Shown here: one piece after another, positions 50,177 through 63,941 of the stretch | How the letters are laid out: each line of letters starts with the position of its first letter | Position numbering within the stretch: the stretch's first letter is position 1 | Assembly (NCBI RefSeq): GCF_011297335.1 | Contig: NZ_JAAOTJ010000001.1 | Coordinates: 496,001 to 560,000, forward strand | From: Catellatospora methionotrophica | Lineage (GTDB): Bacteria; Actinomycetota; Actinomycetes; Mycobacteriales; Micromonosporaceae | Direction: 5' to 3' | DNA: 64,000 nucleotides | Position numbers and translations under genes: made by a program | The notes under the pieces: model-generated | The model's input: the letters and a program-made list of their open reading frames with translations, nothing else | What the model was told of the DNA's origin: nothing | The model's database searches: none

Positions 50177-50512
50177 TCAGTTGAGGTCGGCCAGGTAGAC
50201 GGCGACGATGGCGGCGGCGAAGACGACGACGCCCACGGTGACCAGCATGGCGCCGCGGCCGGAGGCGGGCAGGTCGCCCGCTCGGATGGCCGCGCCCGCC
50301 GCGCGGTAGCGCACGTAGCCGATCACGGCCGTGACGATACCGAGGGCGAAGATGCCCAGCGCGGAGGCGGTCGCGGCCGGGCGGGCGTCGGCCAGGTGCA
50401 GCAGCGCCACTCCCCCGGCGAGCATCGTCAGCGCGGTACGCAGCCAGGCGAGCAGGGTGCGCTCGTTGGCCAGCAGGAACCGTACGTCGACGTCGAGGCG
50501 TTCGGAGCTCAT
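50177..50512 (-). CDS. DUF202 family membrane protein
   Basis: 111 aa. The N-terminus has the DUF202 signature FLLANERTLLAWLRTALTML, followed by three transmembrane helices (about 22-40, 48-68, 85-108). Its start overlaps the FGE stop (ATGA), making it the last gene of the sulfatase operon. DUF202 proteins are small inner-membrane proteins of unknown function, and the close coupling here suggests a role in export, anchoring or copper/oxygen supply for FGE or sulfatases (inference). Confidence 0.85.
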   Translation of the reverse strand: MSSERLDVDVRFLLANERTLLAWLRTALTMLAGGVALLHLADARPAATASALGIFALGIVTAVIGYVRYRAAGAAIRAGDLPASGRGAMLVTVGVVVFAAAIVAVYLADLN

Positions 50513-51504
50513 CGGGGTAGTCCCGGTTCGTCGGCGGCGCAGCGGAACCCGGTGTGCCCGGTGGTGCTGTCCGGAGTGGACATGGTGCGGGCGGCGACCC
50601 GGTAGCGGTTGCAGTACGAGTCGTGGCACAGGTACGAGCCGCCGCGCACGACCCGGCCCGGCCCGCTGTCCGGGCCACGCGGGTCGGTCTGCGGGGCGCC
50701 GTCGCGGTGCAGGTCGGCGCTGAACCAGTCGCCGCACCACTCCCACACGTTGCCCGACGTGTTGAACAGCCCGTACCCGTTGGGCCGGTAGGCGTCGACC
50801 GGGGCGGTGCCGAGGTGGCCGTCGTCGCCGGTGTTGTGCCGGGGGAAGGTGCCCTGCCAGGTGTTGCAGCGGTGCTGCCCGCGCGGGGTGAACTCGTCGC
50901 CCCACGGGAAGCGCGCCTGGTCGAGGCCGCCGCGCGCGGCCTTCTCCCACTCGGCCTCGGTCGGCAGCCGCTTGCCCGCCCACGCCGCGTACGCGCCGGC
51001 GTCATGCCAGGACACGTGCACCACGGGATGGTTGGCGCGCTGGCCGACGTCGGAGCCGGGGCCCTCGGGCGCGCGCCAGGTCGCCCCGCCCACCGGCAGC
51101 CACCACGGGGCTCCCGGCACGTGCGCGTCGAGCACGTGTGCGGCGGCCTCCCGGCCGACGAACTGGTGGAAGACGTACGACCAGCCGAACCGCTCGGCGT
51201 CGGTGCGGTAGCCGGTGGCCTTGACGAACCTCGCGAACTGCGCGTTGGTGACGGCCTTCGGGTCGATCCGGAACCCGGCGACCGTCACCTCCCGCACCGG
51301 GCCCTCGCCGTCGGCGGGGAACGTGTCGGGGTCCTCGCTGCCCATCCGGAACATGCCGCCCGGAATGGCGACCATGCCGCGCACGACCGTCAGCGGGTCG
51401 TGCGCGGGCACGGCGAACCCCAGCTCGCGGGGCGGCTCGCCGGACGAGGACGCGGGGTGGGCACTGGGCCCGCAACAGGCCGTCACCTGCACATTGTCCG
51501 TCAT
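50509..51504 (-). CDS. Formylglycine-generating enzyme (sulfatase activator)
   Basis: 331 aa, no signal peptide, so cytosolic. FGE/SUMF1 fold throughout: MVAIPGGMFRMGS, GFRIDPKAVTNAQFARFV, RLPTEAEWEKAARGG, NVWEWCGDW. The two copper-binding active-site cysteines are present in SYLCHDSYCNRYR (C-x4-C, near 294 and 299), and the C-terminal GFRC is intact, so the enzyme should be active: it oxidises the Cys of CxPxR in sulfatases to formylglycine. The gene overlaps the sulfatase stop (ATGA) and the DUF202 start, so it is made together with its two likely substrates at 51501 and 54713. Confidence 0.95.
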   Translation of the reverse strand: MTDNVQVTACCGPSAHPASSSGEPPRELGFAVPAHDPLTVVRGMVAIPGGMFRMGSEDPDTFPADGEGPVREVTVAGFRIDPKAVTNAQFARFVKATGYRTDAERFGWSYVFHQFVGREAAAHVLDAHVPGAPWWLPVGGATWRAPEGPGSDVGQRANHPVVHVSWHDAGAYAAWAGKRLPTEAEWEKAARGGLDQARFPWGDEFTPRGQHRCNTWQGTFPRHNTGDDGHLGTAPVDAYRPNGYGLFNTSGNVWEWCGDWFSADLHRDGAPQTDPRGPDSGPGRVVRGGSYLCHDSYCNRYRVAARTMSTPDSTTGHTGFRCAADEPGLPR

Positions 51505-53009
51505 GCCCGCGCCGGGCCGGTCACGACGTCGAACGGCAGGCCGCTGGACGCGTCGCCGCAGATGTCCCGCAGCGCCTGATAGAGGTCCGCGACGACCTCC
51601 GGGCGGTCGTGCCACAGGTTGACGGTCTCGCCGGGGTCGGCGGCGACGTCGTAGAGCTGGCCCTGCGGGTGGTCGCGGTCCCACGGCGGGTTGGCGTGGG
51701 CCTTGCCGGAACCGGAGCTGAACAGGGCCGAGATCGACGGCTCGGAGAAGCCGCCGCCGGAGCCCTCGGCGAAGATCGCCTTCCAGGGTCCGCGCCGGAT
51801 CGCGAACCGGCCGCCCAGGCTGTGGTGGACCAGCGGCCGGTCGGCGGGCGGGGCCGCCGAAGCGTCTCCGGCCAGCGCGTCCAGCAGGTCGAAGCCGTCG
51901 GGTGCGGCCCCCTGCGGCAGGGCGACGCCGGTGGCGGCGGCGACCGTGGGCAGCACGTCGGTCAGGCAGATCGGGGCGTCGAGCACCGCCCCCTCGGGCA
52001 GCCGGCCCGGCCAGTTGGCGACGAACGGCTCGCGGTGGCCGCCGTCCCACAGGTCGCCCTTCTGGCCGCGCCAGTCGCCGTTGGGCCGGTGCACGCTGCT
52101 GTCCCCGTCGTCGTCGAAGATCGTGACGGCGCCGTTGTCGCTGGTGATGATGAACAGGGTCTGCTCGCGCTGGCCGCGCTCGTCGACGGCCGCGACGAGC
52201 TGCCCGACCATCCAGTCGACCAGGCACACCGCGTCGGCCCGGTCGCCGAGCCCGGACGCGCCGCGTACGACGTCGGGCGGCACGCACGGCCGGTGCGGGG
52301 CGCTGGGCGTCACGTAGCACAGGAACGGCTGGTCGGCCGGGACCGATCTGATCCAGTCGACGGCCTTCGCGGCGAACGTGAGGTCCACCGCCGCCTCGTC
52401 GAAGCCGTCGACGGCCAGGCCGGGGCGCTGCTCGGTGAGGTAGTACGGCTTCTCCCGGTCGGGGATGCCGACGGTGCGGTCCTGATCGAGGAACGCGTAC
52501 GGCGGCATGTCCAGTGACCCGGCGATGCCGAAGAACCGGTCGAAGCCCAGGTCGAGCGGCCCGCCGGTGAACGGGGCGGTGTAGTCGACGTCGCGGCCGA
52601 AGTCGGTCTCGACGTCGTCGTGCAGCCGCGCACCGGGCGCGAACGCGTCGCGCACGCTGCCGTCGCGGTGCCGCCAGCCCAGGCCCAGGTGCCACTTGCC
52701 GAACGCGCCGGAGGTGTAACCGGCGGTGCGCAGCAGGTTGGCCAGGGTCGGCCGCTCCGGTTCGATCAGCGCCGGGCCGTGGCCCATCAGCACGAAGTTC
52801 TTCAGCGGGCCGCGCCAGGCGTAGCGCCCGGTCATCAGCGCGTACCGGCTGGGGGTGCAGACCGCCGACGCCGCGTGGCAGTCGGTGGCCCGCACGCCCC
52901 GGGCGGCGAGCGCGTCGATGTGCGGGGTGGGGATCGCCGAGCCGTAGCAGCCCAGGTCACCCCATCCCATGTCGTCGGCCAGGACGATGACGATGTTCGG
53001 GTGGCTCAC
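51501..53009 (-). CDS. FGly sulfatase (CTPSR type)
   Basis: 502 aa from a GTG overlapping the GH49-like stop (GTGA). No signal peptide, so it acts in the cytosol on imported sugars, or is exported by another route. Alkaline phosphatase-superfamily marks: metal ligands IVIVLADDMGWGDLGCYG, FGly motif CTPSRYALMTGR near residue 70, AFGKWHLGLG, and the DNG site in IITSDNGAV. C-terminal substrate region about 400-502. The cysteine should be converted to formylglycine by the FGE encoded next. The substrate is probably a sulfate ester on a saccharide from the same pathway. Confidence 0.93.
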   Translation of the reverse strand: MSHPNIVIVLADDMGWGDLGCYGSAIPTPHIDALAARGVRATDCHAASAVCTPSRYALMTGRYAWRGPLKNFVLMGHGPALIEPERPTLANLLRTAGYTSGAFGKWHLGLGWRHRDGSVRDAFAPGARLHDDVETDFGRDVDYTAPFTGGPLDLGFDRFFGIAGSLDMPPYAFLDQDRTVGIPDREKPYYLTEQRPGLAVDGFDEAAVDLTFAAKAVDWIRSVPADQPFLCYVTPSAPHRPCVPPDVVRGASGLGDRADAVCLVDWMVGQLVAAVDERGQREQTLFIITSDNGAVTIFDDDGDSSVHRPNGDWRGQKGDLWDGGHREPFVANWPGRLPEGAVLDAPICLTDVLPTVAAATGVALPQGAAPDGFDLLDALAGDASAAPPADRPLVHHSLGGRFAIRRGPWKAIFAEGSGGGFSEPSISALFSSGSGKAHANPPWDRDHPQGQLYDVAADPGETVNLWHDRPEVVADLYQALRDICGDASSGLPFDVVTGPARA

Positions 53010-54643
53010 GTGTGACAGCTTCCGTCGGTGCTCTTGTAGATCCGGATGGCGTTGGTGGTGTTCTGGTCGATCTGGAAGTTGCCGGCCTGCGCGTTGTTGA
53101 AGCAAGTGGCGTTGGCGTACACGTTCTGGAAGCTGACGTTGCGGACCTTGTGCGTGGCGTCCATGCCCTGGACCACGTTGGGCTGCTGGTACGTCGTGTA
53201 CGCGTAGATGTTGCGGAAGATGATCTGGTCGAGTTCACCGTAGCCCTGGGCCGGGTCGTACCACTTGTTGTTCTCGATGGCCAGGTAGAACAGCCGCCAG
53301 GTGGCGTTCTCGACGCGGATGTCGTCGAACAGGTAGCGGCTCAGCGTGCCGCTGCCCGCGTGCAGCGCCCGGAAGATCGCGGTCTTGGCGATCTGGTAGT
53401 GCTCGGCGTGGATGACGTCGTTGTCGTAGACGTGGAACGTCTGCGGGTCCTCGTGGATGTTCCACGAGATCATGAACGACGCGCCGTTCTCCAGCTGCCA
53501 GATCGTGTTGCCGCGGGCGATGGTGTCACCCCAGAACAGCTTGATCGAGTCGTCGTTGGACTTGACGAAGTTGTTCTCCAGCAGGCTCTTGTGGCCGCCG
53601 ACCATGCCGTCGGTGCTGTACCACCACGACATCGTTTTGACGTTGTGGATCGTGGTGTACTGCGCGAGCGCCCGGACGTTGAACCGGGGCGCGTCAACGA
53701 AGGTGACGCCTTCGATGAGCACGTTCTGCGAGCCCTGGTCGGCGATGTCGATCATGCCGGGCTGGTCCTTGTTCAGGTCCTGGTTGCCGGTGTCCATGAA
53801 CAGGCCGGAGATGACGCCGCGGCCCTTGATGGCGAGGTTGCTGACCGGCCCGTTGGCGATGAACGCGGCCTCGACGAAGGCACCGCCCGCCAGGTAGATC
53901 GTCTGCCCGCTGACCAACTGCTGGCCCGCGCCGAGGAAGTGCTTGCCGGGACCGAAGTACCGCACGTTCGGGTCACTCGGGGAGGGCACGTCGACCTCGG
54001 GCGGGTTGGCGAACACCATCATCGGGTGCAGGACCGGGTTGTGGATGTTCGGCTCGAACTCCACCGACAGGTTGCCCGGCTGGGTGATCGTGAACGTGCA
54101 CACGTTGTTGGCGAAGCTGGTGGCGATCGCGGCCGAGTAGGGCCGGACCAGGCAGCCGGTCGCCGCGCCCGCGGACAGCTTGGTCACCCGTACGGTGACC
54201 GGGCCGGAGAACGAGAACGACGTCCAGGACGTGTCCAGCTCCCGGTTGGTGTCGGTCTTGCGGGCCAGGATCTTGTAGGCGAACGAGTTCTGCGGGGCTC
54301 CCGCGCCGAGCGCGGCGGTGACGCTGTACTGGTCGGAGGCGGTCACCCCGGCCGGTCCCGGATACACCGACAGCTGGTCGGGGGTGCCGAAGGCCGGGTA
54401 GATGCCGCCGTAGGGCAGCGTGTCGCGGTGCGTGGCGATCTCGGCGACGGTGGCCGCCGCCGAGGCCGCGATGTTGTCGGCGATCGCGTCGACGGTCGGC
54501 ACGGTGCCGGAGATCTGGGTGATCCCGCCGCCGAAGTCGTACTGCTTGCCGGTGTAGGGCGCGCCGTTCGCCGCGGCCGGAGCCGCGACGAGGGCGCTGA
54601 GGAGGGCGGTGACGAGCAGGGTGGTACCGGATCTGCGAAGCAT
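53006..54643 (-). CDS. Secreted GH49-like glycoside hydrolase (dextranase/isopullulanase type)
   Basis: 545 aa with a signal peptide (about 1-25, APAAA). N-terminal beta-sandwich (about 30-190) then a right-handed beta-helix (about 200-530; repeated NVLIEGVTF, NVRALAQYTTIHNVK, NNFVKSNDDSIKLFWGDT). The helix carries Asp residues in WWYSTDGM (near 333) and SNDDSIKLF (near 355), which match the acidic positions of GH49/GH28-type inverting glycosidases; GH49 is the best fit. Dextranases and isopullulanases cut alpha-glucans, but here the operon suggests a sulfated polymer. It is the only clearly exported enzyme of the operon. It has a 69-base gap upstream, the only one in the operon, filled with short repeats. 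Confidence 0.85.
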   Translation of the reverse strand: MLRRSGTTLLVTALLSALVAAPAAANGAPYTGKQYDFGGGITQISGTVPTVDAIADNIAASAAATVAEIATHRDTLPYGGIYPAFGTPDQLSVYPGPAGVTASDQYSVTAALGAGAPQNSFAYKILARKTDTNRELDTSWTSFSFSGPVTVRVTKLSAGAATGCLVRPYSAAIATSFANNVCTFTITQPGNLSVEFEPNIHNPVLHPMMVFANPPEVDVPSPSDPNVRYFGPGKHFLGAGQQLVSGQTIYLAGGAFVEAAFIANGPVSNLAIKGRGVISGLFMDTGNQDLNKDQPGMIDIADQGSQNVLIEGVTFVDAPRFNVRALAQYTTIHNVKTMSWWYSTDGMVGGHKSLLENNFVKSNDDSIKLFWGDTIARGNTIWQLENGASFMISWNIHEDPQTFHVYDNDVIHAEHYQIAKTAIFRALHAGSGTLSRYLFDDIRVENATWRLFYLAIENNKWYDPAQGYGELDQIIFRNIYAYTTYQQPNVVQGMDATHKVRNVSFQNVYANATCFNNAQAGNFQIDQNTTNAIRIYKSTDGSCHT

Positions 54644-54662
54644 GGGGGCGGTGCTCCTTGTC

Positions 54663-54705
54663 TGCGGTGTCCTTGCCTTGCGGTGTCCTTGCCTTGCGGT
54701 GTCCT
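54663..54705 (-). repeat. 16-bp tandem repeat in the operon's only gap
   Basis: Two perfect copies of TGCGGTGTCCTTGCCT (54663-54678, 54679-54694) and an 11-base partial third copy lie between the first sulfatase and the GH49-like gene. On the transcribed strand each copy contains AAGGA, a ribosome-site-like word. Confidence 0.7.
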
Positions 54706-54712
54706 GCGAAGG

Positions 54713-56125
54713 TCAGCCGAAGCGGCGCTGGAACTTCGCCTCGGGGTCCCACTCGTTGAGCCCGTCCTGCCCGAAGGCGGGGGCCAGCACGTAGTGGTCG
54801 TGGGTGTTGGCGAGCAGGTCGCGCAGCAGCCCGTGGTGGTGGGCGGCCTGCTCGGCGTGCTCGGGCGCGTCGACGAGGTTGGTCAGCTCGTACGGGTCGG
54901 TCTCCAGGTCGAAGAACTGCCACGGCTTGCCGCCGTGGGCGTCGCCGAGCACCGTGTACTTGTAGCGGCGGCTGCGCACACCGCGCCACGTCTCGTCGTG
55001 GAACGGCAGGCCGGGGCGCATCTCGGCGACGAACTCCAGCAGCACCGCCTCCCGGTCGAGGTGTTCGGTGGTGCCGTTGACCAGCGGGGTCAGGTCCAGG
55101 CCGGGTTTCGGGTCGCGTGGCGTGATCCCGGCCAGACCGAGCAGGGTCGGGAACAGGTCCTCGGTGCAGACCGGGTCGTCGACGGTCCGCGCGGTGGCGA
55201 CGCCGCCGCCGGACACGATCAGCGGGATGCCGATCGACTCCTCCCAGGGCCGCTGCTTGGCCAGCAGTCCGTGGCAGCCGAGCAGCTCGCCGTGGTCGGC
55301 GGTGAGCGCGATGACGGTGTTGTCGAGCTGGCCGTTGGCGCGCAGGGCCTCGACGAGGCGGCCGACGTTGTCGTCCAGGTTCTCGATCATGGCGTAGTAG
55401 GTGCGCAGGTCGTCGAGCAGGTCCTTGCCGTGCGGGCCGCGCTTGTTGTACTCCTTGGCCAGCTCGACGTTGTCGCGCACCTGCACCGGCCGGTCGGCCC
55501 AGCGCTGCAGGTACTCCTCCGGCGCGGTGAAGATCGGGTGCGGCGGTTCGACGGACAGGACCGTGGCGTACGGCTGCCCGTCGCGGGCGCGCTCGTCGGC
55601 GTACTCGATGGCCAGGTCGAACAGCCCGTCGGTCTGGAAGCCCTCGATCTTGTGCGGGGTCGGGTCGTCCTCGTTCCAGTAGTAGGTGTCCCACGGGTCG
55701 TTGCAGATGTCGAACCCGGCGAAGCGCTGGAAGCGGCCCTGGAACGGCCGGGGCACCGGGGTGCGCGACGCCTTGACGACGTTGTGGCCCGGGTAGTGGC
55801 CGAAGTTGCCGTACAGGTGCCACTTGCCGAACAGCGCGGTGTGGTATCCGGCCTCGTTGAACTCGTCGGCGATGGTGCGCTCGGCCGGCGACATGCGCCA
55901 CTCGATCGACGGGATGAACCGGGTGTGCGCGTGCTCGCCGGTGACCAGGCTGAACCGGAACGGCACGCACACCGGGTAGCTCGACGACGCGGCGTCGAAG
56001 CGGGTCCCCTGCCCGGCGAGGGCGTCGATGTGCGGGGTCGCCACGTTCGGGTCGCCGTAGCAGCCCAGGGCCTGGCGGCGCAGCTGGTCGGCGATGATGA
56101 GGATGACGTTGGGGCGGGTGGTCAC
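54713..56125 (-). CDS. FGly sulfatase (CVPFR type)
   Basis: 470 aa from a GTG overlapping the permease stop (GTGA). No signal peptide. Sulfatase marks: VILIIADQLRRQALGCYG at the N-terminus, FGly motif CVPFRFSLVTG near residue 51 (Cys-x-Pro-x-Arg kept although the usual Ser is Phe), ALFGKWHLYG, and the ALTADHGELLG metal site. C-terminus GLNEWDPEAKFQRRFG. Being a CxPxR protein it can still be matured by FGE. It differs from the second sulfatase (CTPSR), so the two probably act on different sulfate positions. It is the first gene after the importer genes. Confidence 0.92.
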   Translation of the reverse strand: MTTRPNVILIIADQLRRQALGCYGDPNVATPHIDALAGQGTRFDAASSSYPVCVPFRFSLVTGEHAHTRFIPSIEWRMSPAERTIADEFNEAGYHTALFGKWHLYGNFGHYPGHNVVKASRTPVPRPFQGRFQRFAGFDICNDPWDTYYWNEDDPTPHKIEGFQTDGLFDLAIEYADERARDGQPYATVLSVEPPHPIFTAPEEYLQRWADRPVQVRDNVELAKEYNKRGPHGKDLLDDLRTYYAMIENLDDNVGRLVEALRANGQLDNTVIALTADHGELLGCHGLLAKQRPWEESIGIPLIVSGGGVATARTVDDPVCTEDLFPTLLGLAGITPRDPKPGLDLTPLVNGTTEHLDREAVLLEFVAEMRPGLPFHDETWRGVRSRRYKYTVLGDAHGGKPWQFFDLETDPYELTNLVDAPEHAEQAAHHHGLLRDLLANTHDHYVLAPAFGQDGLNEWDPEAKFQRRFG

Positions 56126-57006
56126 TTGATACCTCCGGAGGTCAGCCCGGCGACGAACTTGCGCTGGAGCAGCAGGAACAGCAGGACCACGGGTCCGAGC
56201 ATGAAGATGGCGGCGGCGCTGGTCAGGCCCCAGTCGGTGGAGTACTGGTCCTGGAACGCCATGAAGCTGGTGGAGATGGGCCGCAGCTCGGGGTCGTGGA
56301 TGAAGGTGATGGCCCAGAAGAACTCGTTCCAGGACCACAGCCCGACGATCAGCGCGACGGTGAGCAGCCCCGGCCAGGCCAGCGGCAGCACCACCCGCCA
56401 GGCGATCTGCCAGTCGGACGCGCCGTCCAGGCGGGCCGCCTCGGTGAAGTCGTGTGGGATCTTGAGCAGGAACGAGCGCAGCAGCAGGGCCGCGAACGGC
56501 GCGTCGGTGGCGATGTAGATGAGGATCAGGCCGGGGCGGGTGTCGGTGAGGCCGAGGTTGGTCCACATGAAGAACAGCGGGACCACGAACAGCTGCACCG
56601 GCAGGGCGCTGGACAGGAACAGGTAGGCGACCACGCCGTTGCCGCCGCGCACGTTGAGGTGGCTGAGCGCGTACGCCGCCAGGCCCGCCACGAAGCAGGT
56701 GCCCACGACCGAGCCCAGGCACAGGATCGCGCTGTTGAGCATGGTGGTGGCGAAGTCGCCGCGGGTCCACGCCTCGGTGAAGTTGGACAGGCTCAGCGAG
56801 GTCGGCGGCGACAGCGGGTTCGCACCGATCTCGGCGTTGTTCTTGAACGCGTTGAACAGCAGCGCGATCATCGGGCCGATCGCGAACACGGCCAGCGCGA
56901 TCAGGATCAGGTAGTAGACGGGCATGGCGCGGCGCTCGCTGCGCATCGGCCGGGCGGCCCGCGGTGCGGCCTTCGTCGCGGGCCGCTCCAGGGTCGAGGT
57001 GGTCAC
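56122..57006 (-). CDS. ABC sugar transporter permease (MalG/CUT1-like)
   Basis: 294 aa from a GTG overlapping the first permease stop. Six transmembrane helices; the EAA loop reads EAARLDGASDWQIAWRVVLPLAWPG (outlined), the contact for the ATPase. C-terminus QRKFVAGLTSGGIK is typical of MalG-type permeases. It forms the membrane pore with the other permease. No ATPase is encoded nearby, so a shared MsiK-type ATPase is likely. Confidence 0.95.
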   Translation of the reverse strand: MTTSTLERPATKAAPRAARPMRSERRAMPVYYLILIALAVFAIGPMIALLFNAFKNNAEIGANPLSPPTSLSLSNFTEAWTRGDFATTMLNSAILCLGSVVGTCFVAGLAAYALSHLNVRGGNGVVAYLFLSSALPVQLFVVPLFFMWTNLGLTDTRPGLILIYIATDAPFAALLLRSFLLKIPHDFTEAARLDGASDWQIAWRVVLPLAWPGLLTVALIVGLWSWNEFFWAITFIHDPELRPISTSFMAFQDQYSTDWGLTSAAAIFMLGPVVLLFLLLQRKFVAGLTSGGIK

Positions 57007-57905
57007 TCTTCCCACCCCTTTCGCTTGAGGTACTGGTAGCCGGCGAGCACGAAGCCGATGATCACGGTCATGGTCAGGCCGAGGGCGGCCGCGTAGCCGG
57101 CCTCGTACTCGTTGAAGGCCTGCTTGTACATGAGCGTGGAGACGACTTCGCTGGACCCGGCGGGGCCGCCGCCGGTCATGATGAAGATGTAGTCGAACGC
57201 CTTGAGCGTCCAGATGACCGTCATCAGGCTCAGGAAGACCACGGTCGGGCGGATGCCCGGCAGGGTCACCGACGTGAACTGCTGCCAGCGGTTGGCGCCG
57301 TCCATCTTCGCGGCGTCGTACAGCTCCGGGTCGACGCCCTGCATCGCGGCCAGGTACACCACGGCCAGGAAGCCCCACCAGTGCCAGTCGACGACGAAGT
57401 TGACGCTGAGCAGCGAGGTGTCCGGGTCGCCGAGCCAGGCGTGGTCGATGCCCATGGCGTGGCCGATGCCGCTGGTCGGTGACAGCAGCATCTTCCACAC
57501 GGCGGCATTGACCACGCTGGCCACGACGTACGGGATGAAGTACAGCGCCCGGAACAGCACCTGGAACCGCTTGACCTGCGAGAGCAGGTACGCGCCGAGC
57601 AGTCCCATCGCCGTCGGGATCGAGCCGAACAGCACGAACCAGATGACGTTGTGCCACAGGGCGTCGTGCACGGCCGGGTCGGCGAAGGCGCGGGTGAAGT
57701 TGTCGAACCCGATGAAGGTCGCCGGTCCCAGACCGGACCAGTCGGTGAACGCGTAGTACACCGTGGCCAGGGCTGGGCCGAGGACGACGAGGCCGTTGAG
57801 GATCAGCAGCGGGCTCAGGAACAGCCAGGCCCGCTTGCTGCCGCGCGACTTCGGCCTACCCCCGGTCGGCGCGGTGTCCATGGTCGTCACCGACGGCGCG
57901 ATCAT
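57003..57905 (-). CDS. ABC sugar transporter permease (MalF/CUT1-like)
   Basis: 300 aa, ATG overlapping the solute-binding protein stop (ATGA). N-terminal cytosolic stretch rich in Arg/Lys, then six transmembrane helices (AWLFLSPLLILNGLVVLGPAL first). The EAA-type loop appears as ELYDAAKMDGANRWQQF. Together with the next gene it makes the importer channel for oligosaccharides or sugar derivatives bound by the lipoprotein. Confidence 0.95.
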   Translation of the reverse strand: MIAPSVTTMDTAPTGGRPKSRGSKRAWLFLSPLLILNGLVVLGPALATVYYAFTDWSGLGPATFIGFDNFTRAFADPAVHDALWHNVIWFVLFGSIPTAMGLLGAYLLSQVKRFQVLFRALYFIPYVVASVVNAAVWKMLLSPTSGIGHAMGIDHAWLGDPDTSLLSVNFVVDWHWWGFLAVVYLAAMQGVDPELYDAAKMDGANRWQQFTSVTLPGIRPTVVFLSLMTVIWTLKAFDYIFIMTGGGPAGSSEVVSTLMYKQAFNEYEAGYAAALGLTMTVIIGFVLAGYQYLKRKGWEE

Positions 57906-59308
57906 TTCGCCGGACCCCGTGCGGGCAGCGGCGGGATGTTGCCCTCGGCCTTCTCGGCCTTGAACTTGTCGGCGAGCTGCTGGCAGTACTGCGCCGGGGT
58001 CAGCTTGCCGGTGAGCACCTGCTCCAGGCCCTCGTAGATGAACACGTCGGTCTTCGGCGGCCACCAGGTCCAGGTGACGTAGCCGTAGTCACCGGTCGCG
58101 ACGGCCTTGTTGACCGAGGTCAGCACGCGTCCGGCGCGGGCGTCGATGGTCGAGGGGATGTCGGCGTCGGCGAAGTCGACCGGGATGTTGTAGGTCGAGG
58201 GCACGTCGGCCATGCGCTTGAGCGCGGCGGCCTTGTCGCCGTAGTACCAGTCGAGGTATTCGGCGGCGGCGTCCTTGTTCTTGCTGGCCGCGTTGACGGC
58301 CAGCGAACCGCCGATGCCGATCTCGAACAGCGGGTACTTGACCTCCTGACGCAGCGCGGGCATGGGCATCCAGTCCCACTCGTTGTCGTTCTTGGCCTTG
58401 GCGCCGAAGTACTGGCCGACCTGGCTCATGAACCAGTTGCCCTGCGGCACCATGGCCACGGTGCCCTTGCCGAAGTTCGCGCCGATCTCGGTCGACGGGA
58501 CGGAGAAGTACTTGTCGGTGCCACCGGCGATCCAGCCCTTGTCGAAGTACGACTTGACCAGCTCGACGGCCTCGACGAACACGGGGTCGGTGAACTGGAT
58601 CTGGCCGGACAGGGCCTGGTGCAGGGCGTCGGGACCCGAGTAGTGGTTCCAGAAGACCGTCATCAGCCACTCGCCGGCGGCCTTCCAGTCGACGTTGGAG
58701 GAGCCGAACGGCACGATGCCCTTGCCGTGGGCGTCGGCGGCGATGGCCTCCAGCTCGGACCGGTTCGTCGGGGTCTGCCAGCCGTTCGTGGCGAACAGGG
58801 ACTTGTTGTAGTACAGCAGCATGGTGTCCACGCGCATCGGCAGGGCGTAGAGCTTGCCGTCGTTGGTGAACGCCTGCATGGCCCACGTGGCCAGCTTCGA
58901 CTCCCAGCCGAACTTCTTGGCGTACGGGGTGAGGTCGGCCAGGATGTGCGCGCGGCTCCAGGCGATGGTCTGGGTGGCCGACGGGCCGCGGACCACGTCG
59001 GGGCCGGACTTGGCCTGCAGCGACGTCTGGATGAGGCGGCGCAGGTCCTCGCCCTTGTAGAAGGTCGCGTTCAGGTCGATCTTCGGGCGGGCCTTCTCGA
59101 AGTTACCCACGACGTTGTCGGTGAAGTACTTCTGGTTGGCGTCGCCCTGCACGTCGATCCAGAGGTCGATCTTGCCCTGGGCGTTGTCGCCCGGCACGAT
59201 CGGCTCCTCCTCACCGGCGCACGCGGCCAGCAGGCCGGGCGCGGTCAGGCCCAGGGCGGTCAGGCCGGCTGTGCCGAGCAGCCGGCGCCGGTTCATCGCG
59301 AGGTTCAT
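57902..59308 (-). CDS. ABC transporter sugar-binding lipoprotein
   Basis: 468 aa from an ATG 5 bases after GGAG; a second ATG four codons on is possible. Signal NRRRLLGTAGLTALGLTAPGLLAAC contains a Tat-like RRRLLG and lipobox LAAC (Cys near 30). The mature part is a CUT1 type I/II periplasmic-binding fold (DLWIDVQGDANQKYF, IAWSRAHILADLTPYAK, MRVDTMLLYYNKSLF). It should capture the operon's substrate at the cell surface. The start overlaps the ARH stop by one base (TGATG). Confidence 0.95.
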   Translation of the reverse strand: MNLAMNRRRLLGTAGLTALGLTAPGLLAACAGEEEPIVPGDNAQGKIDLWIDVQGDANQKYFTDNVVGNFEKARPKIDLNATFYKGEDLRRLIQTSLQAKSGPDVVRGPSATQTIAWSRAHILADLTPYAKKFGWESKLATWAMQAFTNDGKLYALPMRVDTMLLYYNKSLFATNGWQTPTNRSELEAIAADAHGKGIVPFGSSNVDWKAAGEWLMTVFWNHYSGPDALHQALSGQIQFTDPVFVEAVELVKSYFDKGWIAGGTDKYFSVPSTEIGANFGKGTVAMVPQGNWFMSQVGQYFGAKAKNDNEWDWMPMPALRQEVKYPLFEIGIGGSLAVNAASKNKDAAAEYLDWYYGDKAAALKRMADVPSTYNIPVDFADADIPSTIDARAGRVLTSVNKAVATGDYGYVTWTWWPPKTDVFIYEGLEQVLTGKLTPAQYCQQLADKFKAEKAEGNIPPLPARGPAK

Positions 59309-61308
59309 CAGGACTCCAAGGAGGTGAGGGGCGTGATGTTCACTTCGTGCGTGGTGGTGCGGCCCTCGGTGACCACGAGCGCGATGCCGCCGTGGGCGAG
59401 GGTTTCGTCGTGCAGGTCGAACAGGACCGTCCCGTCGACGGAGCCGGTGAGCCGACTGCCCGCGACGGTCAGGCGCAGCGTGTACGTGGTGCCGAACTCC
59501 CACGGCAGCGGCGCGCTGGCCAGCACCCGGTCGCCGCATACGAGCCGGGCGGTGTCGCGTCCGGCCAGTTCCAGGGCGTAGTAGTCGCGGGCGCCCTGGA
59601 CCCGGGCGGCCAATCCGGCGGCGCGGGCCAGGTGCGGGGTGACGTCGGCGGTGACCGTGTAGTCGCGCCAGCCCGCCTCGCCCTGTACGAGCAGGCCGGT
59701 GCCCTGGTTCTGGACCAGCCGGAACGGCTCGGGCCAGCGGTCGAACCACTGGTCGGCGGCCTGCACCCAGGCCCGCCGCCACATCGTGCCGCCACCGGCG
59801 GGCCGGGTCAGCCGCACCTCGGGTGCGCCGTCCCAGGTGAGCCGGTCCAGGGCCACCGGGCCGTCGGTGCGGAACCCGACGAACGCCACCGGGTATCCGC
59901 CGAGGTCCGGCACCCGGACGCGCAGCGTGCCCGCCGCCTGCTGCGGTGAGGCGACCGTGTGCAGCTGGTCGTCGGCCCCGTAGTAGCCGACGAGCAGGCT
60001 GACCTGCGCGTCGCCGGTGAACACGGCGGTGACGGTCTGCCCCGGGTACAGCGTCGGGCTGGCGACCATGCCGTAGATGGGCATGTCCAGGCCCTCGGGC
60101 GGGGTGAACGTCGGGGTGGTGACGGTCGCGGGGCCGTCGACGTCGAGCCGCCCGGCGGTGTTGCTCAGCGTGCCGGTGCCCGACGACGCGGTGAAGCCCT
60201 GCACCGAGCCGGGCAGCGCGAAGTGGAAACGCGCCCCGTCCTTGGGGACCAGCGGCTCGCGTCCGGCCCAGCGCAGGCCGTGGTTGGCCAGGATGACGGC
60301 CTGGGTGGCCGCGTCGGTGACGCTGGAGCCGCCGTCGACGGTCGGCAGGTACATGCGGTCGGCGATCGGACCGCGCCAGTCCGGTGCGGCGAGCCCGGCC
60401 AGTCCGAGGCGTACGCCGCAGATCGCGCCGACGTTGCCCGCGTTGGAGTCGGTGTCCCAGCCGGAGGTGCACACGACCTTCATCGCCTCGGCGAACTCGC
60501 CGCCGCTGTGCACCAGCGCGTGGATGACCGTGGCGTGGTTGGGCACCACGTGGCAGTTGCCGCCGTAGCGGTGGTAGCCGTACTTCTCGTCGATGCGGGT
60601 GCGGGTCTCGCGCCAGTCGGACGCCTGCGCCGACCACTCCCGCACGTCGGCGACGACCTGGGCGATGAGGCTGTCCCCCGGGATCAGGCCGACCGCCGTG
60701 TCCAGCAGCTTGTCCATGTCGGACTCGGTGAACGCCCCGGCGACCAGTGCCGCGACCACGCGGGCGGCGTGGATCGACTCGCCGTCGTGACTGACCCGGG
60801 CGGCGCGCTCGGCCAGGTCCGCGGCGGCGGCCGGGTCGCCCGGCCGGGTCATCGCGAAGCCCTCGACGAAGATCTGCGCGCCGACCTGCTCGGCGACGAC
60901 GGTGCCGTTGCGGGCGATCGAACCGCTCTCCGGCGGCACGACCCCGGCCTTCATCCGCAGGTACGCGGTGTGCTCGGTGGAGTTGCCCAGCCCGCCCCAC
61001 CACAGCACGCTGACGTTCTCGACGATCTCGTTGAGCCAGGTGTGCCCGACCTGGACGCTGGTCGGCTCCGGGTGGCGGGCCAGCACCCGCGGGAACACGA
61101 ACGTGCCGCTGATGTCGTCGTCGGCGACGACCAGCAGGTGGTGCTTGAGTGCCACGTCGTGCCGGTCGTTGACGTAGTAGGTCACGTCGCCCAGCTCGGC
61201 GGTGATCTTGTCGTGGGTCCAGCCCTCGAACGGCCTGCCCAGGTACACCGCGATGACCTTGCCCAGCACCCCGGCGTACACGCGCTCGGCGTAATCGTCG
61301 TTCACCAT
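59308..61308 (-). CDS. ADP-ribosylglycohydrolase-family protein fused to LamG-like domain
   Basis: 666 aa, cytosolic by sequence (no signal), starting at an ATG that overlaps the RbsD stop (TGATG). The first about 350 residues match the ARH/DraG all-helical fold: VYAGVLGKVIAVYLGRPFEG, the acidic ADDDISGTF near 65, NCHVVPNHATVIHAL, and the metal signature GWDTDSNAGNVGAICG near 280. Middle part (about 385-520) is beta-rich. The C-terminal about 145 residues resemble the concanavalin/LamG-like fold of 3-keto-glycoside hydrolases (AGLAARVQGARDYYALEL, YTLRLTVAGSRLTGSVDG). In a sulfatase/ribokinase operon it may hydrolyse a ribofuranosyl-like glycosidic bond; true ADP-ribosyl substrates are also possible. 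Confidence 0.87.
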   Translation of the reverse strand: MVNDDYAERVYAGVLGKVIAVYLGRPFEGWTHDKITAELGDVTYYVNDRHDVALKHHLLVVADDDISGTFVFPRVLARHPEPTSVQVGHTWLNEIVENVSVLWWGGLGNSTEHTAYLRMKAGVVPPESGSIARNGTVVAEQVGAQIFVEGFAMTRPGDPAAAADLAERAARVSHDGESIHAARVVAALVAGAFTESDMDKLLDTAVGLIPGDSLIAQVVADVREWSAQASDWRETRTRIDEKYGYHRYGGNCHVVPNHATVIHALVHSGGEFAEAMKVVCTSGWDTDSNAGNVGAICGVRLGLAGLAAPDWRGPIADRMYLPTVDGGSSVTDAATQAVILANHGLRWAGREPLVPKDGARFHFALPGSVQGFTASSGTGTLSNTAGRLDVDGPATVTTPTFTPPEGLDMPIYGMVASPTLYPGQTVTAVFTGDAQVSLLVGYYGADDQLHTVASPQQAAGTLRVRVPDLGGYPVAFVGFRTDGPVALDRLTWDGAPEVRLTRPAGGGTMWRRAWVQAADQWFDRWPEPFRLVQNQGTGLLVQGEAGWRDYTVTADVTPHLARAAGLAARVQGARDYYALELAGRDTARLVCGDRVLASAPLPWEFGTTYTLRLTVAGSRLTGSVDGTVLFDLHDETLAHGGIALVVTEGRTTTHEVNITPLTSLES

Positions 61309-61697
61309 CAGAAAGCCACTCCCGCTCGCAGGATCACGTTGGCGTACGGCGTCGCCTCGCCTGTGCGTACGACCGCATGGGCCCGGCCGCACAGCGCCTT
61401 GAGTTGTTCGTGGTCCACGGCCGCGACCGGCACGCCGCCGACCGCTTCGCGCAGCCCGGCCAGGAAGGCCGCGTCGGTCAGCTCGTGGGCGACCACCGCC
61501 TCCTGGACGACCAGCTCACCGGCCACCGCCCGCAGCACCGGCAGCAGCGCAGGCTCGCCGCGCCCCCACACCAGGTCGATGGTCTCGACCCCGCGCGGCA
61601 CCGGCAGGCCCGCGTCGGCGAGCACGATGCTGTCGTAGTGGCCCAGCGCCGCCAGCAGTTCGGCCAGCCGCGGATGCCAGATCCCGTCGCGCCGCAT
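61308..61697 (-). CDS. rbsD: RbsD/FucU-family sugar mutarotase (ribose pyranase-like)
   Basis: 129 aa. The ATG overlaps the ribokinase stop by one base. Signature motifs: LGHYDSIVLADAGLPVP near residue 17-34 with the catalytic His, and the C-terminal ATPYANVILRAGVAF. RbsD interconverts pyranose and furanose forms of D-ribose; FucU does the alpha/beta change of L-fucose. Pairing with a ribokinase favours ribose or a ribose-like sugar. It acts in the cytosol on the released monosaccharide. Confidence 0.92.
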   Translation of the reverse strand: MRRDGIWHPRLAELLAALGHYDSIVLADAGLPVPRGVETIDLVWGRGEPALLPVLRAVAGELVVQEAVVAHELTDAAFLAGLREAVGGVPVAAVDHEQLKALCGRAHAVVRTGEATPYANVILRAGVAF

Positions 61698-62647
61698 CAG
61701 GCCCTCCCGTTCCCGGTCAGGAACCCGTCGACCTCGGCGGCGGTGGGCAGCGCGGCCTGCGCGCCCATCCGGGTGGTGGCCAGCGCGCCGACCGCGCAGC
61801 TGCGCCGCAGCGCCTCGGCCGGTCCCCGGCCCTGCGCCAGCGACACCGCCAGCGCCCCGCAGAACGCGTCGCCCGCGCCGGTGGTGTCGACCACCGCCAC
61901 CGGGAAACCGGCACAGGCCAGCTCCCCGTCCGGTCCGGCCAGCACCGCGCCGTCGCCGCCGAGGGTCACCACGCACACGCGTGGTCCGTGCGCGGTCAGC
62001 TGCGCGGCCAGGCGCTGCCAGCCGGCGGTGTCCCGAGGCGGTGCGCCCTGCTGCCCGCTCAGGTGCCACGCCTCGCCCTCGTTCACCACCAGCACGTCGA
62101 CGGCCGCCAGCAGCTCGGCGAACACGGGGTCCATCACCTTCGGCAGCGGAGCGGCGTTGAGCAGCACCGTCGCTCCCGCCGCGCGCGCCAGCAGGGCCGC
62201 GTCCAGGCAGGTGGCGAGCGGGATCTCCAGCTGCAGCAGCAGCACCGCGCCCGGTGACAGCAGCTGCGGCAGCTGGGCGGTCAGCGGCTGGCCGTCGAGC
62301 AGCTCGTTCGCGCCGGGAGCGACGACGATCGTGTTCTCCCCCGCACCCTCCACCACGATCATGGCCAGCCCCGTTGCCGCGCCGTCGATCGTGGTCAGGC
62401 TCCCCGCGGGCAGCCCCTCAGCCTGCAGCGCGGTGCGCAGGTCCAGGCCGAACTGGTCCGCGCCGACCGCGGCGAACAGGATCGTGTCGGCCCCCATCCG
62501 GCGCGCGGCGACGGCCTGGTTGCCGCCCTTGCCGCCGGGCCGGAAGGAGACCTCCGAGCCCAGCACGGTCTCGCCCGGATCGGGCAGGTGCGACACCGCC
62601 ACGGTCAGGTCGAGGTTGACGCTGCCGACCACCGCCACCCTGGTCAT
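61697..62647 (-). CDS. rbsK: Ribokinase (PfkB family)
   Basis: 316 aa; its ATG overlaps the LacI stop (ATGA). PfkB marks: GSVNLDL near the N-terminus, GGKGGNQAVAARRMGA near 38-53, the ATP/anion-hole motif DTTGAGDAFCGAL with catalytic Asp near residue 253. It should phosphorylate the sugar, probably D-ribose at O5, bringing it into the pentose phosphate pathway. Other PfkB sugars cannot be excluded. Confidence 0.93.
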   Translation of the reverse strand: MTRVAVVGSVNLDLTVAVSHLPDPGETVLGSEVSFRPGGKGGNQAVAARRMGADTILFAAVGADQFGLDLRTALQAEGLPAGSLTTIDGAATGLAMIVVEGAGENTIVVAPGANELLDGQPLTAQLPQLLSPGAVLLLQLEIPLATCLDAALLARAAGATVLLNAAPLPKVMDPVFAELLAAVDVLVVNEGEAWHLSGQQGAPPRDTAGWQRLAAQLTAHGPRVCVVTLGGDGAVLAGPDGELACAGFPVAVVDTTGAGDAFCGALAVSLAQGRGPAEALRRSCAVGALATTRMGAQAALPTAAEVDGFLTGNGRA

Positions 62648-63702
62648 CGTTTCCCCATTTCGTTCGTACTGGTCGGTGCGCTGGCGCGGCCGCCGCCGGG
62701 CGGGTCGTCGCAGCCGCACGAGCCGCGGGCGAGCAGTTCGACAGGCAGCACCTGCGGCTGCTGTTCGGTGCCCGCGAGCTGCCCGAGCAGGTGGTCCATG
62801 GCCACCCGGCCGAGCTGCGGGAAGGGCTGCACCATCGTGGTGAGCCCCGGAGTCGTGAACGCCCCCGGCGCGATGCCGTCGAACGAGGCCAGGGCCACGT
62901 CGGTGGGGCAGCCGAGGCCCAGCTCGGCGATGGCCCGCAGGGCTCCGATCGCCTGCTGGTCGCTGGCGGCGAAGATCGCGTCCGGGCGGTCGCGCGGGTC
63001 GGCGAGGATCGCCCGGGTCGACTCGTACCCGGCGCGGCGGCCGAACGGCGCGTGCCAGGCGAGCATGTCGGCGGGGCGTACCCCGGCCGCGGTCAGCGCG
63101 TCGCGCCACCCGGCGACGCGGTCGGTGGCGGGCATGACGTCGCGCGGCCCGGCGATGCAGGCGATGCGGGTGCGGCCGTGGGCGAGCAGGTGCTCGACCG
63201 CGACCCGCGCGCCGCCCCGGTTGTCGACCAGCACCGCCGGGGCGGTGGCCCCGTCGACCTGCCGGTCCAGCGACACCCACGGCACCCGCGAGCGCTCCAG
63301 CTCCTCCAGGCAGCCGACCGGGCCGTGTGCCGGGACGAGGAACAGCCCGTCGACCTGGCGGGCCAGGAAGGTACGCACGTAGGTGGTCTGGCGCTGGTCG
63401 TCCTCGGCGGCGTTGCCGATCAGCAGCGTGTAGCCGCGGGCGAACGCCTCCTCCTCGATGGCGCGGGCCAGCTCGGCGAAGAACGGGTTCGCGTTGTCGG
63501 GCACCACCAGCCCGAGGGTCATGGTGCGGTTCATGCGCAGCGACCGGGCGATGCCGTTGGGCCGGTAGCCGAGCTGCTCGATCGCGGCCAGCACCTTCGC
63601 ACGGGTGTGCGCGGCGACCGGGCGTCCCCCGTTGAGGACATAGCTGACGACAGCCGGCGATGTTCCTGCCAGCTTCGCCACGTCAGCGCGCCGTACCGTC
63701 AC
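62644..63702 (-). CDS. LacI family regulator of the sulfated-glycoside operon
   Basis: 352 aa from a GTG with GGAGG 5 bases upstream; another GTG six codons earlier has no site. HTH at the very N-terminus (RRADVAKLAGTSPAVVSYVLNG), hinge-helix GIARSLRMNRTMTLGLVVPD, and a periplasmic-binding-like sensor (about 60-340; DNANPFFAELARAIEEEA, DAIFAASDQQAIGALRA). C-terminal CGCDD is unusual. First gene of the operon, so it should repress its own operon and be released by an intermediate sugar or sugar phosphate. Confidence 0.94.
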   Translation of the reverse strand: MTVRRADVAKLAGTSPAVVSYVLNGGRPVAAHTRAKVLAAIEQLGYRPNGIARSLRMNRTMTLGLVVPDNANPFFAELARAIEEEAFARGYTLLIGNAAEDDQRQTTYVRTFLARQVDGLFLVPAHGPVGCLEELERSRVPWVSLDRQVDGATAPAVLVDNRGGARVAVEHLLAHGRTRIACIAGPRDVMPATDRVAGWRDALTAAGVRPADMLAWHAPFGRRAGYESTRAILADPRDRPDAIFAASDQQAIGALRAIAELGLGCPTDVALASFDGIAPGAFTTPGLTTMVQPFPQLGRVAMDHLLGQLAGTEQQPQVLPVELLARGSCGCDDPPGGGRASAPTSTNEMGKR

Positions 63703-63713
63703 TCCAACCTCCG

Positions 63714-63728
63714 TCAACACGAGTTGCG
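63714..63728. promoter_or_regulatory. LacI operator O1
   Basis: TCAACACGAGTTGCG contains CAACACGAGTTG, one mismatch from the palindrome CAACACGTGTTG with the central CG typical for LacI family sites. It lies 12 bases upstream of the LacI start. Confidence 0.6.
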
Positions 63729-63769: not shown

Positions 63770-63784
63770 CGCAATACGTGTTGA
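63770..63784. promoter_or_regulatory. LacI operator O2
   Basis: CGCAATACGTGTTGA is the reverse complement of O1 except for two bases; its core CAATACGTGTTG is again one mismatch from CAACACGTGTTG. Centres of O1 and O2 are 57 bp apart, allowing co-operative binding or a loop. Confidence 0.6.
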
Positions 63785-63941
63785 TAGCTGTTACCTGACC
63801 GAGACAACGGATCTTGTCGATCGCTGTGCTGGACCCGCTCGTCTGCCGTACGCCGTCCGATCGTGCCTGGTCGGGCCGTCGCGCCGAAAGCGCAGGTCAG
63901 GAGCGGGAGACGTCCGGGCCGTTACGGCCGGCGGAACGTGT

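Follow-up and report, generated by a model that had tools for sequence, protein, structure and literature searches.

A stretch of the Catellatospora methionotrophica genome carries a likely operon that joins two sulfatases and a formylglycine-generating enzyme (FGE) with a ribokinase-like kinase, RbsD and an enzyme of the ADP-ribosylhydrolase (ARH) family. On balance, we think it probable that this is a LacI-controlled operon for the use of a sulfated glycan containing D-ribose. The DNA analysed, hereafter the window, is 64,000 nucleotides long and covers positions 496,001–560,000 of contig NZ_JAAOTJ010000001.1 in a genome of 8.39 Mb.

The pathway we infer, with ribose as the sugar and the ARH protein as the glycosidase, would start outside the cell, where a secreted GH49-like enzyme would cut the polymer. 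A CUT1 ABC importer would take in the sulfated oligosaccharides, and their sulfates would be stripped by two formylglycine sulfatases in the cytoplasm, which the operon's own FGE would activate. The ARH-fold protein would then hydrolyse the ribosidic bond, and RbsD and ribokinase would convert ribose to ribose 5-phosphate. LacI would repress the operon via two operators and release them when an intermediate accumulates. The ARH metal site needs free ribose hydroxyls, which would account for desulfation preceding this step. A preliminary description of this DNA had proposed the same flow, from secreted cleavage through import, desulfation, glycoside cleavage and mutarotation to phosphorylation. 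The domain content agrees with it, and so do the signal peptides judged by eye: one is visible on the GH49-like protein and none on either sulfatase.

Architecture of the operon

Twelve genes, all on the minus strand, span window positions 50177–63702 (Table 1). Open reading frames and Pfam matches place every gene where the preliminary description had put it, and the overlaps it reported at ten of eleven junctions are there as well. From 5' to 3' the junctions measure -4, -1, -1, -1, -4, -4, -4, +69, -4, -4 and -4 bases, the sole gap between genes being the 69 bases from sulfatase 1 to the GH49-like gene. Matches over the Pfam cut-off are LacI, PfkB, RbsD_FucU, ADP_ribosyl_GH, SBP_bac_1, BPD_transp_1 (twice), Sulfatase (twice), FGE-sulfatase and DUF202. 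The DUF202 gene, initially counted as an operon member, lost that place: among the loci compared it is matched only in the window and in one other (L050), and it is probably a passenger. With DUF202 set aside, the functional set looks like eleven tightly packed genes of a soil-type actinomycete.

The two sulfatases are indeed different formylglycine enzymes, as had been claimed. Both exceed the Pfam Sulfatase cut-off, and their CxPxR sites read CVPFR and CTPSR. Sulfatase 1 has CVP[FY]R in 13/13 sequences examined and sulfatase 2 has CTPSR in 13/13; the five nearest solved structures of the latter include a GalNAc-6-sulfatase and two named S1_15. FGE carries CHxSYCNRYR in 10/10 aligned sequences, and thus the paired cysteines of CxxSYC near the C-terminus that we take to be the FGE motif. 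The whole genome holds 11 sulfatase-family and 4 FGE-family matches.

Conservation of the gene order

We searched 354 Micromonosporaceae genomes, the organism's own included, for the ARH protein (E <= 1e-80) and found it in 13; the ten other congeneric genomes searched gave no match. The preliminary description had let its reading hinge on whether relatives keep this gene order, and they do. The full order LacI–ribokinase–RbsD–ARH–binding protein–permease–permease–sulfatase 1–GH49–sulfatase 2–FGE stands in nine of the 13 ARH-positive genomes (the window, L037, L038, L050, L052, L053, L054, L055 and L056), and two Kribbella loci (L060, L065) keep it in part, carrying the gene set with RbsD and both sulfatases. 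Protein identity to the window is 58–83% in seven of the eight other complete loci and 81–94% in L050. In L055 the binding protein is split over two frames.

The other four ARH-positive genomes hold three variants and one remnant. In L039 the contig begins within ribokinase, and GH49 sits after FGE, truncated by the contig end. After LacI to sulfatase 1, L057 (genome G064) has GH49 in three copies, then sulfatase 2; FGE is not matched in the stretch retrieved (L207). L058 (G065) likewise runs from LacI to sulfatase 1 and on into three copies of GH49, where its retrieved sequence stops. The remnant, L051 in Asanoa, retains LacI, ribokinase and ARH only. Sulfatase 1 of G064 lies in two frames (L057:5345-6747), which points to either an error in sequencing or a disrupted gene. 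The Asanoa iriomotensis locus (L064:8066-11998, the same place as L051) keeps the operator-like sites described below and is likely a product of decay. A phylum-wide sample of 396 genomes yielded the organism's own genome and one partial match at a contig end, on 2.5 kb whose sole neighbour homologue is a 26% binding-protein homologue.

Co-occurrence and apparent transfer as a block

Of the 13 ARH-positive genomes, 12 have GH49 relatives scoring above 840 bits, the exception being Asanoa (G135); of the 341 ARH-negative genomes, none does. The latter gave five weak matches at E <= 1e-30, of 113.5–138.5 bits. Three genomes (G064, G065 and G030) have three GH49 copies each.

The window shares a 13.6 kb alignment with L050 (genome G305), 89% identical at the nucleotide level. 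It begins at 63795, a little upstream of the operator sites, and ends at 50232, in the last codons of DUF202; the flanks do not align over the stretch that can be compared, 205 bases upstream and 1.3 kb downstream. To the operon of G199, which belongs to the same genus as G305, the window is 79.4% identical. Across the rpoB region, G305 and G199 share 94.4% with each other, and the window lies at the same distance from each (89.2 and 89.6%). On the simplest reading of these comparisons, the operon appears to have been transferred between genera as one unit.

A shared operator-like sequence

Two LacI-type operator-like sites lie upstream of lacI, where a repressor would bind. CAACACGT is present there in 14/14 loci, at -80 to -93 where it is scored as a palindrome. 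The distal site reads TCAACACGTGTTGC in 11 of the 14, with a single-base change in L055, the window and L050. Ten of the 14 have exactly GCAACWCGTGTTGA as the proximal site, and L037, L038, L057 and L058 carry close variants. Part of this conservation reflects shared descent, because the loci are related.

The operator pattern, which was derived from these sites, has no match in the 64 kb beyond them (0.12 expected). The 13-base core GCAACWCGTGTTG returned 24 matches in 13 genomes, and a reversed control pattern returned 0; in its own genome the core occurs once only, at this locus. By coordinates, 21 matches map to lacI; the other three are single extra sites in G064, G065 and Rugosimonospora (G030, contig C30). 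The extra matches in G064 and G065 have no operon-gene homologue nearby and were taken as chance. The Rugosimonospora site directly precedes two further GH49 genes, then a GDSL esterase, and ties GH49 to the predicted regulator independently of gene order.

This second unit of Rugosimonospora africana occupies L202:6324-11108 and bears the same operator-like sites. Its esterase raises the possibility that the polymer is also acylated. Within the window, Rfam and tRNA scans gave no match, and a terminator scan found 3 sites against 3.9 expected, with no sigma-70-like promoter; these last scans are uninformative either way.

Table 1. Genes and operator-like sites of the operon, in window coordinates
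Feature	Position	Strand	Basis
Distal LacI-type operator-like site O1, TCAACACGTATTGC	63771..63784	-	upstream of lacI
Proximal LacI-type operator-like site O2, GCAACTCGTGTTGA	63714..63727	-	upstream of lacI
LacI-family regulator	62644..63702	-	closest NCBIfam RbsR, under cut-off
Ribokinase-like PfkB kinase	61697..62647	-	Pfam PfkB; GSxNxD, GGKGxNQ, QLE, DTTGAGD
RbsD, D-ribose pyranase	61308..61697	-	PF05025; NCBIfam cut-off exceeded
ADP-ribosylhydrolase-fold enzyme with beta-sandwich regions, the last CBM66-like	59308..61308	-	PF03747, 167 bits, residues 13-306
CUT1 solute-binding protein	57902..59308	-	PF01547; lipoprotein signal judged by eye
CUT1 permease 1	57003..57905	-	PF00528
CUT1 permease 2	56122..57006	-	PF00528
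Sulfatase 1, CVPFR	54713..56125	-	PF00884; no signal peptide by eye
GH49-like beta-helix glycosidase	53006..54643	-	profile and predicted fold; signal peptide by eye
Sulfatase 2, CTPSR	51501..53009	-	Pfam Sulfatase; no signal peptide by eye
Formylglycine-generating enzyme (FGE), CHxSYCNRYR	50509..51504	-	PF03781, 279.9 bits
DUF202 membrane protein	50177..50512	-	Pfam DUF202; overlaps FGE gene

Predicted ribose-type end metabolism

RbsD, the only PF05025 match in the genome, scores 121.9 bits against a cut-off of 93 for the NCBIfam D-ribose pyranase and falls far under the cut-off for fucose mutarotase (27.5 against 141 bits). This score supports the ribose-type ending of the preliminary description; the closest NCBIfam models of the kinase and the regulator are ribokinase (TIGR02152) and RbsR, both below cut-off. 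Ribokinase signatures are present in 11/11 kinase sequences examined, and the nearest solved relatives bear the name ribokinase. Judging by these signatures, the kinase may function like a ribokinase, though it is not classed as one.

In having RbsD, a ribokinase-like kinase and an RbsR-like regulator, the operon resembles the ribose operon (RbsD, RbsK, RbsR). It differs in its importer, CUT1 in place of RbsABC, and in that its sugar would derive from a sulfated glycoside.

An ARH-fold protein among sugar genes

The ARH protein belongs to the ADP-ribosylhydrolase (ARH/DraG) family by its PF03747 match, over the cut-off, and by its fold. In the predicted model (pLDDT 89.9), Foldseek matches the ARH domain to ARH3, DraG and MJ1187 at TMt about 0.65–0.75. 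Residues E28, D63–D65, D285 and D287 are invariant in 47/47 aligned relatives. The acidic motifs, which we take to bind metal, line up with those of MJ1187 in a weak match (E 2.1e-5). The protein had been called an ARH-LamG fusion, a name of which the first half stands; in place of LamG there is a beta-sandwich stretch whose last part resembles CBM66 and the lectin domain of galactocerebrosidase. Foldseek matches this C-terminal sandwich to CBM66 (TMt about 0.80) and to the galactocerebrosidase lectin part, and the sequence matches are weak (CBM66 E 3e-4; Glyco_hydro_59_C E 0.0062). Compared with ARH3, DraG and MJ1187, the protein is alike in fold and acidic motifs and differs in its CBM66-like part, its sugar-catabolic neighbours and its sequence, at 14–18% identity.

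The metal ions of known ARHs contact the cis-diol of ribose, and the ribose–ribose bond of poly(ADP-ribose) is cut by ARH3. On this chemistry, desulfation would have to come first and the ARH protein would be a plausible ribofuranosidase. The CBM66 of levanase, for its part, binds terminal fructofuranosides. The gene context argues for a predicted riboside target other than ADP-ribosyl bonds.

At least 576 stretches encode a relative of this protein. The best 80, which we examined, include Chloroflexi, Gammaproteobacteria and Acidobacteria. Among these 80 loci, homologues of operon genes were found for permease 2 in 20, permease 1 in 17, LacI in 14, the binding protein in 10, sulfatase 1 in 10 (several below 30% identity), sulfatase 2 in 6 and FGE in 3. 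The neighbour counts, together with three loci described below, suggest an older module made up of ARH, LacI, importer and kinase, which gained sulfatases, GH49 and FGE in actinomycetes. Clustering the neighbours of the 80 loci gave no pointer to a substrate: by Pfam, eight cluster representatives comprise an ABC exporter-type protein, a TonB plug protein, an SDR, an MR_MLE enzyme and four without a match, and many clusters derive from closely related metagenome-assembled genomes.

Three loci (L040:8051-15696, L077:8018-12091 and L131:785-5074) combine LacI, ribokinase and ARH, with ribokinase directly adjoining ARH and no sulfatase matches; L040 also has a CUT1 importer. They may reveal what this ARH clade acted on ancestrally.

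A putative GH49-like depolymerase

The GH49-like protein has no Pfam match over the cut-off, and the GH49 N-terminal domain appears only at E 0.037. A profile search against solved structures nonetheless found the dextranase 6nzs (E 3.9e-22), 1wmr (4e-15), 3wwg (4.8e-15) and 1ogm (2.7e-7), with the isopullulanase match at E 4e-15. Foldseek agrees: for the predicted model (pLDDT 83.6) the top seven matches are all GH49 (E 5.8e-17 to 7.0e-15, TM 0.55–0.65, rmsd 5.9–8.1), so that profile and fold both bear out the enzyme's early assignment. When compared with what we take to be the positions of the three GH49 catalytic aspartates, D345 and D365 are invariant in 15/15 GH49-like sequences; the residue preceding D365 is E in two paralogues. 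The enzyme is like the GH49 dextranase and isopullulanase in overall fold and may be like them in aspartate pattern. It is unlike them in sequence, at 17–18% identity in the fold matches, and its neighbours do not suggest an alpha-glucan.

Which substrate

Several observations weigh against a ribose-containing glycan as the substrate. The kinase scores 267.1 bits, under the ribokinase equivalog cut-off of 299.65, and the regulator misses that of RbsR (233.1 against 531 bits). The solved relatives of the GH49-like enzyme are dextranase and isopullulanase, which act on alpha-glucans and not on ribosides. For the ARH model as a whole, the top three Foldseek matches are to mouse galactocerebrosidase, through the C-terminal lectin-like part and not the ARH domain. 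At the best 80 ARH loci, homologues are few for the kinase (seven, one of them 26% identical), RbsD (five) and GH49 (five). Neither Kribbella locus has a match to ribokinase or FGE within the 22 kb retrieved; both functions may be encoded elsewhere in the genome. The operon has no hexosidase. Finally, the presence of RbsD might mean a ribopyranoside substrate, and we know of no ARH enzyme that cuts ribopyranosides.

The GH49 relatives, the kinase's sub-threshold score and the GalNAc-6-sulfatase among the structures nearest to sulfatase 2 would all suit a sulfated alpha-glucan or another hexose glycan. Ribokinase and RbsD would then serve some other aldose or a minor side-chain sugar, and the ARH protein would remove a side group. 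We regard this as unlikely, since the window operon encodes neither an alpha-glucosidase nor a hexokinase, the intergenic gaps of the complete loci (within the operon, the flanks being unannotated) are too small for such a gene, and RbsD passes as a D-ribose pyranase while falling far short as a fucose mutarotase.

Alternatively, the target could be a small sulfated riboside, nucleoside-like or another ribosylated metabolite, which the GH49-like enzyme merely frees from a carrier. ARH-fold enzymes are known for cleaving N- and O-ribosyl bonds, which speaks for such a target. CUT1 importers, on the other hand, carry mostly oligosaccharides, and the triple GH49 copies of G064, G065 and G030 suggest a polymer; we hold a small riboside to be improbable. 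A parallel in its favour is E. coli yegTUV, which couples a predicted ARH (YegU) with a putative sugar kinase (YegV) and a putative nucleoside symporter (YegT) (PMC10819704). As described there, yegTUV differs from the operon in its MFS transporter and GntR-family regulator and in having no sulfatase, GH49, FGE or RbsD, and its function is likewise unsettled (PMC10819704).

That sulfate scavenging and ribose use are independent functions sharing a transcript by chance is very improbable: ARH does exist with LacI, importer and/or ribokinase where sulfatase matches are lacking, but the genes are jointly conserved in several genera, close GH49 relatives occur only alongside ARH, and the operon has a single operator set and apparently moved as a block.

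For the favoured sulfated glycan with D-ribose, the identity of the polymer can be proposed tentatively. It could be a sulfated ribofuranan, or else a sulfated exopolysaccharide of cyanobacterial type that contains ribofuranose. The GH49-like enzyme would cut it as an endo-hydrolase, and the ARH–CBM66 protein would be an alpha-ribofuranosidase, its fold founding a new family of carbohydrate-active glycosidases next to the ADP-ribose chemistry already known for it; we hold this fuller proposal to be less likely than not. Two named polymers were considered. Synechan was set aside, as ribose is not detected in the composition table of its source (PMC8205485), and the P. marincola capsule contains beta-ribofuranose and is not described as sulfated in the available text (PMC7281560). 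A further lead, GH49 action on sulfated arabinan, found no support in a literature search.

Comparison with known systems and significance

Sulfatase-bearing polysaccharide utilisation loci of the carrageenan, fucoidan and ulvan types resemble the operon in having a secreted depolymerase, an importer, S1 sulfatases and monosaccharide catabolism in each locus. Unlike them, the operon combines CUT1 ABC import, cytoplasmic sulfatases and a GH49 depolymerase with an ARH-fold enzyme replacing the exo-glycosidase, ribose-type end metabolism and an internal FGE. Judged by titles and abstract openings, the papers returned by our searches of an open-licence library, which omits preprints and most subscription papers, report neither this gene arrangement nor a gene set for using a sulfated ribose-containing glycan.

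Sulfate groups and pentoses, ribose among them, are described as peculiarities of cyanobacterial exopolysaccharides in a review (PMC4500136). This pairing of sulfate and ribose offers a testable link, namely actinomycetes feeding on cyanobacterial slime. If our reading is true, the operon would be a gene set for consuming a sulfated ribose-containing glycan. It would suggest a role for a broad ARH-fold family, and it would amount to a natural polymer predicted from its degraders.

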